35,189 nt of DNA from a virus. Both the position numbers and the translations under genes were made by a program. How positions within the stretch are numbered: position 1 is the first letter of the stretch; the number at the start of each line of letters is the position of its first letter. The stretch covers positions 1 through 35,189 of IMG/VR virus record IMGVR_UViG_3300032249_000589; one strand, 5' to 3'. Positions 29,948 to 31,803 of the stretch are shown here, one piece after another. The notes beneath the pieces were generated by a model. It saw only the letters and a list, made by a program, of their open reading frames with translations, was not told the DNA's origin and searched no databases.

Positions 29948-30743
29948 AATAACCCATCTTAGTTTTTCAAGATTAAAAGCTTTATCTCATTCTCCTTTGT
30001 GCCTTAAAAGATACATTGAGCAGACTAGAACATCCACTAAAGCAATGGATGAAGGTACGCTACTTGATTGCCTTTTGTTTGAGGCAGAAACATTTCACGA
30101 TAGGTTTTTTATTATGCCCGAGGGTGTAAAGAAGCCTACAATCTCACAAATTAACGCTAAAAAACCATCGCCAGACACATTGGAACAAATAGCCGTATGG
30201 GAAGAAATCCAATCAAGAATAGGTAAAAGAATTGTTATTACTCAGGAACAATACGACGATAGCGAATATATAGCTGAATGCGTACGAAATAATAGTACGG
30301 TTGTATTTCATGGCTTACTTCATCCTAATAACTTTAAATTTCAAGTAACCACCGATTTTTTTTATAAAGGATTTAAACACAAAGGTATTAAAGATGCCGA
30401 AGGATTAGATAGAAATGGTAAGCATGTTATTTGGGATTTAAAAAGAATGGGAGCGAGATCTGGCGAACAACTTGTAAGAAGCCAAATAAGACACAACCAA
30501 TATGACTTACAGGCAGCGATTTATTGCCATAAATACGACATTGAAAATATAGCAGTTGACTACTTTATTATTGCAGTTGATAATGAGGGATATGTTACTC
30601 CTTTTAAAATTTCCCGCGATGCAAGGGAAAAGGCCCGATGGCAATGGCATAGATTAATCGCAGCCGCTCACCGAGTAAACATGGAAGGGATGGATATGGG
30701 CCCAGAGTTTTGGGGAGATAGTGAAGGATTTTTTGATTTTTAA
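29940..30743 (+). CDS. RecE/lambda-exonuclease-like PD-(D/E)XK nuclease
   Basis: 267 residues that should degrade 5' strands of double-stranded DNA for the annealing protein. The N-terminal LSFSRLKALSHSP, then EGTLLDCLLFE near 38-48, resembles exodeoxyribonuclease VIII / PDDEXK_1 proteins. The active site reads KGIKDAEGLDRNGKHVIWDLK, giving Asp152, Asp166 and Lys168. NQYDLQAAIY (186-195) provides the conserved Gln-Tyr helix. It is adjacent to and overlaps the RecT gene. Together they make a two-component recombination system. Confidence 0.88.
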   Translation: MNEITHLSFSRLKALSHSPLCLKRYIEQTRTSTKAMDEGTLLDCLLFEAETFHDRFFIMPEGVKKPTISQINAKKPSPDTLEQIAVWEEIQSRIGKRIVITQEQYDDSEYIAECVRNNSTVVFHGLLHPNNFKFQVTTDFFYKGFKHKGIKDAEGLDRNGKHVIWDLKRMGARSGEQLVRSQIRHNQYDLQAAIYCHKYDIENIAVDYFIIAVDNEGYVTPFKISRDAREKARWQWHRLIAAAHRVNMEGMDMGPEFWGDSEGFFDF

Positions 30744-30752
30744 AAAAATATC

Positions 30753-31163
30753 ATGAAAGAGTATAATAGTAAGATGTTAGAAATTAAGGCTTTTTGTGAG
30801 GAGGTTAACGCTTGGATTAGCACAGCCCCATCGGCTGAAATGCTAGACGAATGCGATGAGTACCTCCGACAATTATCTGCTTATTACTCTCGATACACGG
30901 TTATTAGTGGCATGAATGAAAGCATCTATTCTTATCTTATGATGAGTTGTATTCGTGATATGCCAGAGGAGGAGTATAAAAGAGTTAAGCACTCCTCCAC
31001 ATTAACCGATTTTTACGTTAAAGGGAAATATCCAAAAGCTACAGCAATATTTGAGCAATGTAGAGCCGTTCAAAAGTTATTATTAGTAACTTCGGATAAT
31101 TATAGAACTTTGCTTAGTAGCTTTAGGCAGGAAAGAATATTAGTCGGTCACATGACTACATAA
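30753..31163 (+). CDS. Unknown protein after the recombination pair
   Basis: 136 residues, helical, moderately charged, with no membrane segment and no recognised catalytic motif. Tyr and Cys residues cluster in the first 60 residues (LDECDEYLRQLSAYYSRYTV). It starts 9 nt after the RecE-like stop and is probably the last gene of that operon. A structured noncoding gap follows before the nucleotide-metabolism genes. I suggest no function. Confidence 0.58.
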   Translation: MKEYNSKMLEIKAFCEEVNAWISTAPSAEMLDECDEYLRQLSAYYSRYTVISGMNESIYSYLMMSCIRDMPEEEYKRVKHSSTLTDFYVKGKYPKATAIFEQCRAVQKLLLVTSDNYRTLLSSFRQERILVGHMTT

Positions 31164-31173
31164 GATATTTGCA

Positions 31174-31383
31174 GACCTCGGGTTTAGGTGTTATGTTATT
31201 TTCCCCAGATTAAACATTTCTTTCACACCTATTCGCGTCAGAGGATGAATTGGCAGCCTGGAAATAGACAGGCAAATAGCAAGGTGGTAAAAATTAATCT
31301 GCGTTTTTTCCTCACGAGGGTTTAGCTGCTTTAAGTAAAAACTATTTAATTTTTGCCCCTTGTTATAAATTTTAAACCATACC
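31174..31383 (+). ncRNA. Structured noncoding region with a 21-bp helix, upstream of the nucleotide-metabolism genes
   Basis: In the 235-nt gap between genes ending at 31163 and starting near 31399, the RNA can form several nested hairpins. A 7-bp stem (31185-31191 / 31225-31231) with an inner 5-bp stem is the first. A 5-bp stem GCCTG / CAGGC (31256-31260 / 31269-31273) is the second. The third is a long helix, 31276-31297 with 31346-31366, of 21 pairs with one bulged U and two wobbles, closing a 48-nt loop that holds a CCTC / GAGG hairpin. The only ORF I see in this gap on the plus strand is 26 codons. It may be a cis-acting RNA or a small RNA. The class is unknown to me. Confidence 0.62.
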
Positions 31384-31395
31384 GTTGACGTCAAC
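31384..31395. promoter_or_regulatory. Perfect 12-bp palindrome GTTGACGTCAAC
   Basis: Self-complementary over 12 bases and placed 3 nt before the first possible ATG (31399) of the nucleotide-metabolism gene. It could be a protein operator at the end of the structured leader. Its centre GACGTC recurs once at 32159-32164, probably by chance. Confidence 0.5.
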
Positions 31396-31398
31396 AAA

Positions 31399-31803
31399 AT
31401 GATTATTATGAATGAAATTGAAAAATTAGAAACAAAAACAAACAAAGAATGGGTTAAGGAGTTAATGATAGCTTCTGGAAGGAATCCTTGCATTGAAGAA
31501 TATGGTGCATATAGGACAAATGAAAATAAGCTAAGATATGACCTTTGCCCAGCCATTGCACAAAGGGAATATGCTAAAGTGTGGACTCAAGGACTTGAAA
31601 AATACGATGCTGGCAACTGGGAGAAAGGCTTTCCCTTTTCTGTTGTAATCGCCTCCGCAATGCGTCACCTCGAGGCAATGCGACTTGGTGAAATGATAGA
31701 CGCTGAAAGTGGGCTTTTGCACTCCGCACACTTAATGTGCAATGCCGCAATGTTAACAGAATTTCATTTTACTCACCCAGAACTAAATGATTTAAAGAAA
31801 TGA
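31399..31803 (+). CDS. dATP/dGTP diphosphohydrolase-like protein (MazZ family)
   Basis: A 134-residue nucleotide pyrophosphohydrolase-like protein. It shows the motif set I associate with PF18909: LRYDLCP (45-51), KYDAGNWEKG (68-77), and AMRHLEAMRLGEMID with ESGLLHSAH, supplying His90, Glu92, Glu98, Asp101, Glu103, His108 and His111. MazZ proteins of Z-genome phages hydrolyse dATP/dGTP, but no PurZ-like synthetase is visible here. It may therefore remodel host dNTP pools instead. Met4 at 31408 is an alternative start. It overlaps the next gene by 4 nt and is followed by dCTP deaminase. Confidence 0.75.
   Translation: MIIMNEIEKLETKTNKEWVKELMIASGRNPCIEEYGAYRTNENKLRYDLCPAIAQREYAKVWTQGLEKYDAGNWEKGFPFSVVIASAMRHLEAMRLGEMIDAESGLLHSAHLMCNAAMLTEFHFTHPELNDLKK

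Follow-up and report, generated by a model that had tools for sequence, protein, structure and literature searches.

A phage intergenic gap that looks like a modular RNA island, with an exchangeable cassette slot ahead of dNTP genes

The intergenic gap that precedes a set of dNTP-metabolism genes in an uncultivated phage looks, by comparison of related loci, like an undescribed modular phage RNA and not like a riboswitch. That the gap encodes structured RNA is clear from the pairing preserved among its relatives. The comparison reveals a conserved 5' domain, a slot behind it, inserts that share their ends and are exchanged between loci, and a small hairpin whose spread and orientation extend well beyond this phage. 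From the same comparison, we give about an even chance to the fuller proposal that the gap encodes a modular noncoding island, which host tRNA-maturation enzymes would process.

The window, that is the whole stretch of DNA analyzed here, is a linear virus record of 35,189 bases. Matches in PHROG to portal, major head, protease, terminase and tape-measure proteins identify a tailed phage, and the nearest named phages are distant (the dGTPase-like protein is at best 41-46% identical, the terminase 43%). A RecT gene, a DUF3799 nuclease-like (PDDEXK) gene and a 136-amino-acid ORF precede the gap; genes for a dATP/dGTP diphosphohydrolase-like protein and for dCTP deaminase (DCD) follow it. The first-pass annotation of the window had described the gap (235 nt, 31164-31398) as holding no convincing ORF. 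Indeed, stops close all three forward frames, and the lengths of the gap in relatives differ by non-multiples of three, which led us to reject a coding gap. The features discussed below are the following:

30753-31163, + strand: 136-amino-acid upstream ORF, present in nearly all loci; its stop codon adjoins the RNA domain
31162-31274, + strand: conserved domain of structured RNA, some 103-113 nt long in relatives (alignments A1 and A2)
31176-31179 with 31241-31244, + strand: helix 1, CCTC with GAGG, absent from the first-pass list
31182-31189 with 31227-31234, + strand: helix 2, in the region of a previously listed 7-bp stem; 94% paired
31250-31274, + strand: hairpin UUGGCA-GCCUG-GAAAUAGA-CAGGC-A, the local version of a phage-wide form, which ends the 5' domain
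31275-31369, + strand: cassette slot, defined by locus comparison; empty, tRNA-like or, in the window, holding a long helix
31278-31365, + strand: acceptor-framed helix cassette without D- or T-arm, with the same ends as the tRNA-like cassettes
31278-31284, + strand: 5' part of that helix, AGCAAGG, followed by bulged U31285 at the U8 position and 12 further pairs
31358-31364, + strand: 3' part of that helix, CCUUGUU, followed by A31365 at the discriminator (A73) position
31368-31400, + strand: gene-start element with a GTTG/CAAC dyad (31384-31395) before the ATG; the conserved 3' boundary of the slot
31399-31803, + strand: dATP/dGTP diphosphohydrolase-like gene (Pfam PF18909, E 1.6e-25; phrog_801)

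The conserved 5' domain

Homologous loci, metagenomic contigs throughout, were collected from IMG/VR with the dGTPase-like protein (80 loci) and with the RNA pattern alone, two conserved blocks on either side of a spacer of variable length, so that loci would not be picked through their downstream gene (79 stretches). Pooled with earlier loci, these gave 67 distinct sites bearing the RNA pattern; a third search, by the gene for the 136-amino-acid protein, yielded 80 copies of it. The domain was found in 67-68 distinct phage loci, and domain and slot are limited, as far as searched, to one phage lineage, so part of the domain's conservation reflects shared descent.

The first-pass annotation had suggested looking for covariation in homologues, and 9-10 of the 16 base pairs of the domain do change on both sides. 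In alignment A1 (44 sequences), 96.9% of cells are paired over three helices, as opposed to 28-42% once the 3' strand is slid, and both-side changes occur in 86 cells, against a shuffled mean of 30.5, affecting nine of the 16 pairs. In the more diverse alignment A2 (26 sequences) 97.3% are paired and ten of the 16 pairs carry both-side changes; none of 500 shuffles reached any of these measures, and the slid-partner control over both alignments gave 28-44%. All of these counts are relative to slid and shuffled controls, without correction for phylogeny.

The three helices contribute unequally. Helix 2 bears most of the covariation signal, with both-side changes in six of seven pairs. Here the first-pass annotation had placed a 7-bp stem with an inner stem (31185-31231): the outer stem stands, with compensatory changes in relatives, whereas the inner one is present in the window but not conserved, since many relatives have an alignment gap there. 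The 5-bp hairpin it had drawn at 31256-31273 also holds up (z = -3.1), with compensatory changes in relatives and both-side changes in three of the five pairs. Helix 1 is invariant in A1 except for one C-G to U-G change, and its compensatory change is a single case (L356, CCGC/GCGG); from the alignments, it appears the weakest supported of the three. The unpaired segments around the covarying stem are highly conserved.

A check of folding energy proposed earlier gave -58.9 kcal/mol for 31160-31400 (RNAfold, z = -2.8), which three of 200 shuffles equaled. Folded alone, the 5' domain has ordinary stability (z = -0.55), and support for it is comparative; the long helix alone folds far better than shuffles (z = -3.6, 0 of 200 as good). 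The impression that the RNA belongs to no known riboswitch class was borne out: no curated Rfam model matched the domain at its gathering score, and the best hit (E 0.48), to a CRISPR repeat on the opposite strand, is at chance level. A search of 198 genomes of one phylum found no domain, which, as the search had no positive control, shows little.

Some loci have lost the domain, leaving a short remnant (L341) or nothing (L375), and in seven others a different tRNA-like element replaces it (L354, L355, L358, L360, L361, L370 and L371), preceded in some by a small extra ORF. In three loci (L023, at 2509-2543 and 2864-2967; L090; L016) we noticed a partial start of the domain followed by an extra ORF and, behind it, a full domain, as if recombination inside the domain had inserted a gene. 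The upstream 136-amino-acid protein is 85-100% conserved within the lineage and matches nothing in Pfam or PHROG. Its AlphaFold model consists entirely of helices (mean pLDDT 68), and the sole informative viral match in a structure search was an uncharacterised homologue.

The cassette slot and its contents

Upon comparing the leaders, we found that about 113 nt at the 5' end and about 33 nt at the 3' end are conserved and that the part between them is exchanged. Among 68 distinct loci the slot is empty in 18, holds only tRNA-like material in 36 and other material in 10; three contain only the long helix and one the helix together with a tRNA-like cassette. The first-pass annotation had treated the region as one RNA that includes its 21-bp helix. 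With the helix in only four of the 68 loci, we rejected a single continuous structured RNA, and because the slot is otherwise empty or tRNA-like, the helix cannot be the switch.

The tRNA-like cassettes begin with AGCAAGG-UG followed by a D-arm and end with a T-arm followed by CCUUGCU-A. As in phage tRNA clusters (RF00005), acceptor stem, U8, D-arm and T-arm are kept; by contrast, the anticodon domain is expanded or replaced by varied structure, and two stereotyped acceptor stems recur. Eight loci reach the Rfam tRNA gathering score (L074, L009, L015, L081, L080, L010, L037 and L279; 34.5-44.9 bits), with long inserts between D- and T-arms, and the cassettes of other relatives fall below this cut-off. 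ARAGORN, used to detect a canonical anticodon arm with its 7-nt loop in the relatives' cassettes, gave no match in 29 of 31 loci. It left 69 of 120 tRNA-like genes undetected, mostly genes of 94-180 nt with an expanded middle, and AGTCAGG/CCTGACT and AGCAAGG/CCTTGCT dominate among their acceptor stems. Such cassettes escape standard tRNA annotation, so the noncoding content of phages is probably undercounted.

Some of the missed genes have an 8-nt T-loop (TATCRAAT); the loci that carry missed genes include L008, L012, L018, L024, L040, L074, L081 and L104. One cassette interior recurs in L002, L080, L081, L147 and L251 with seeming covariation (TGAGG/CCTCA versus TCAGG/CCTGA, and CGCA/TGCG versus CGCG/CGCG), and is possibly an RNA family of its own. 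A group I intron within a tRNA was considered and dropped, as no Rfam intron matched among the loci scanned.

In the window, the slot holds the 21-pair helix, which forms exactly as first drawn (31276-31297 with 31346-31366), including the bulged U at 31285 and the two wobbles (31279.31363 and 31288.31355). Its strands begin AGCAAGG-U-GG and finish CC-CCUUGUU-A, so that the first seven pairs correspond to an acceptor stem (AGCAAGG/CCUUGUU, one G.U) and A31365 to the discriminator base; across copies, the ends read AGCAAGG-U ... CCTTGYT-A. Helix and tRNA-like cassettes share identical slot boundaries. Unlike the cassettes of phage tRNA clusters, the window's cassette lacks D- and T-arms: a continuous helix stands in their place, with no T-loop motif, and Rfam and ARAGORN scans of the window gave no tRNA match. 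As it lacks a T-arm, its recognition by RNase P or the CCA enzyme is no more than plausible. An inverted tRNA-like cassette as the source of the helix was rejected for want of a significant match on either strand.

Five distinct copies of the helix are known, 97-100% alike; the interior is almost free of compensatory variation, and one pair is broken in L038 and L045. In L038, L054 and L065 the neighbor of the helix is another allele of the 5' domain, and on the same contigs (L114, L113 and L112) the helix precedes ThyX, not the dGTPase-like gene. That one helix combines with different domain alleles and with different genes behind it is direct evidence for exchange. Within the helix interior, 17 nt (31333-31349, AAGTAAAAACTATTTAA) recur without a mismatch at the 3' end of the DCD gene of many related phages; this may be chance in AT-rich sequence (E 0.035).

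The 3' boundary of the slot is formed by the gene-start element, a block of about 33 nt (ACCATATCGTTGACNNCAACAAAATGAT) that in relatives also stands ahead of ThyX and of a small ORF and that occurs twice in one locus in, for example, L024, L025, L040, L046 and L062. The 12-bp palindrome noted earlier at 31384-31395 is perfect in the window, whereas relatives mostly keep only GTTG/CAAC and vary its center. On this comparison, the palindrome is part of a start element repeated before several genes.

A proposed order of events and its rivals

The arrangement of the parts suggests how such an island could work. Along the transcript, the order would be the 5' domain, a punctuation hairpin, an exchangeable cassette, the gene-start element and then the ThyX, dGTPase-like or DCD genes. 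Cassettes may be swapped by short-homology recombination, perhaps with the neighboring RecT and PDDEXK nuclease, and would be transcribed along with the operon as one unit. Host tRNA end-processing would then free the tRNA-framed cassettes as stable small RNAs, while domain and hairpin would act in cis as punctuation, keeping the RNA segments and the downstream mRNA apart or shielding them.

Control of the dNTP genes, as the first-pass annotation had it, is the most immediate alternative. On this account, the gap is a cis-regulatory leader whose 113-nt domain senses a nucleotide, folate or a phage protein and acts on the ThyX, dGTPase-like and DCD genes, the cassettes being passengers. In keeping with it, ThyX (41), a dGTP-diphosphohydrolase-like gene (21) or dCTP deaminase (two) is the next recognized gene in 64 of 67 loci (none in the remaining three), a consistent position 5' of functionally related genes, although one within a single lineage, where shared synteny accounts for the association. 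The conserved unpaired segments flanking the covarying stem are likewise aptamer-like, and a conserved structured 5' domain before dTMP/dNTP genes recalls known riboswitches and nucleotide-gene leaders. Yet the link to the upstream gene is equally tight or tighter: 71 of 80 copies of that gene have the domain next, a few nt away except in loci such as L323 and L357, where an extra ORF lies between. The domain also precedes other genes in L143, L251 and L254, DCD occurs without the domain in L375, and the variable insert, often hundreds of nt of tRNA-like RNA, means that other RNA of up to about 500 nt can part the domain from the dNTP genes. Unlike known leaders, it matches no Rfam class, and no expression platform was seen, a scan of 30700-31500 for terminator-like sites having found none. 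We therefore regard cis-regulation, or a dNTP riboswitch, as possible but not favored, and the leader model as unlikely.

The contents of the slot invite two further explanations. The cassettes could act in trans as tRNA mimics, for example as decoys for host tRNA-cutting defenses or tRNA-binding enzymes, an idea that we consider improbable, as we do its corollary that the window's helix is a stripped-down mimic of an acceptor end. The dominance of two stereotyped acceptor stems among the 69 missed genes, the varied structures in place of anticodon domains and the fast turnover of slot content among relatives, as an arms race would predict, all fit this idea; however, nothing ties it directly to a defense system, the slot is often empty (18 of 68), and the window's helix lacks the arms that most tRNA nucleases need. 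Alternatively, the helix could be a remnant at the DNA level (a recombination inverted repeat or small mobile element) with no function as RNA, lying beside a conserved domain that does function, a reading that we think has little chance of being right. Its near-identical five copies, the lack of compensatory changes and ends that are inverted repeats all speak for a remnant, but in acceptor stem, U8 and A73 those same ends agree with the tRNA-like cassettes, whose slot the helix shares, and the helix folds far better than shuffles. A processed modular island remains the reading we prefer, and with a new covarying RNA domain, a compact hairpin and a cassette slot that has tRNA-type ends, an orphan leader becomes a testable system.

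The small hairpin in other phages

The hairpin that ends the 5' domain belongs to a wider form, U-GRCA-stem-GAAAGA-stem-A, shared by numerous unrelated phages. A related 21-mer, TTGACAGCACGGAAAGACGGC, has exact matches in 29 viral stretches, and six MAG contigs of varied phyla contain its last 20 bases. The pattern TTGACAGCNTGGAAAGACANGC matched at least 120 viral stretches in IMG/VR, as opposed to none for an equally specific control pattern with a mismatched stem. Among 83 non-redundant contexts the stems covary, the loop is GAAAGA in 80 and A follows in 67, although conservation of the T's, stem and loop is partly built in because the pattern fixes two T's before GACA and much of stem and loop; the variants in stem and loop were obtained from loci collected by other routes. 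G is nearly absent at three positions past that of the conserved A in these contexts.

The copies are intergenic and face the downstream gene: an ORF starts on the same strand within 120 nt downstream in 55, compared with eight in the mirror control, with a peak near 28 nt. Of the 83 contexts, 24 have a tRNA T-arm no more than 160 nt upstream, compared with 3.9% of random positions. In L139, L178 and L180 the same hairpin stands between ordinary tRNAs; these are large phage tRNA arrays, two of which (L139 and L180) also contain a tmRNA gene. Further examples include L083, L099, L110, L121, L387, L388, L389 (400-1935), L390 and many more.

Several identities for the hairpin were discarded. It is not an intrinsic terminator (at least six T in the next 9 nt in just 24 of 134 copies; none in the scan of the window region), nor a host repeat such as REP, being absent from 296 sampled genomes of one bacterial phylum. 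A constant stem just upstream of UGRCA gave no signal (4.73 versus 4.56 in shuffles). The boxB element of lambda nut, which lies between genes in phage transcripts, has a short GC stem capped by a purine-rich loop of the GAA type. The likeness of the phage-wide hairpin to it is one of general shape and intergenic position; the hairpin differs in its hexaloop GAAAGA, in its conserved 5' UGRCA and 3' A, and in occurring in phages of very different hosts. The put RNA of HK022 is about 70 nt long with two stem-loops (PMC9378689). A cis-acting phage RNA of this kind, which works without a phage protein, would suit the hairpin's wide spread, but homology to put was rejected: a scan of HK022 for GAAAGA hairpins found none at the early put sites, and the sole convincing one lies at 39862, past the lysis genes.

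Related copies are found in crAss-like phages, cyanophages and ssRNA phages, so that dsDNA and ssRNA phages have the hairpin in common. Should the hairpin work by recruiting a host factor, the factor would have to be one with broad conservation, which makes the target findable. We tentatively entertain, at well under even chances, the broader notion that phages of very different hosts share the punctuation hairpin and build with it hypervariable small-RNA arrays of tRNA-framed cassettes; such arrays would be cut out by host tRNA enzymes, and the window would represent a minimal case with one degenerate cassette. A search of the open-access literature found no report of the hairpin motif or of cassette arrays.

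Single copies occur near tRNA-Cys in Pseudanabaena phage Pan5 and after the replicase gene in ssRNA phage Esthiorhiza.2_44. In crAss-like phage cr272_1, four hairpins stand in a row, about 115 nt apart (L389:1140-1520), inside a 1.5-kb unannotated gap. Between these copies lie hairpins with CTCTC loops that could pair with downstream GAGAG, pairings that, judged by eye, are possible pseudoknots.
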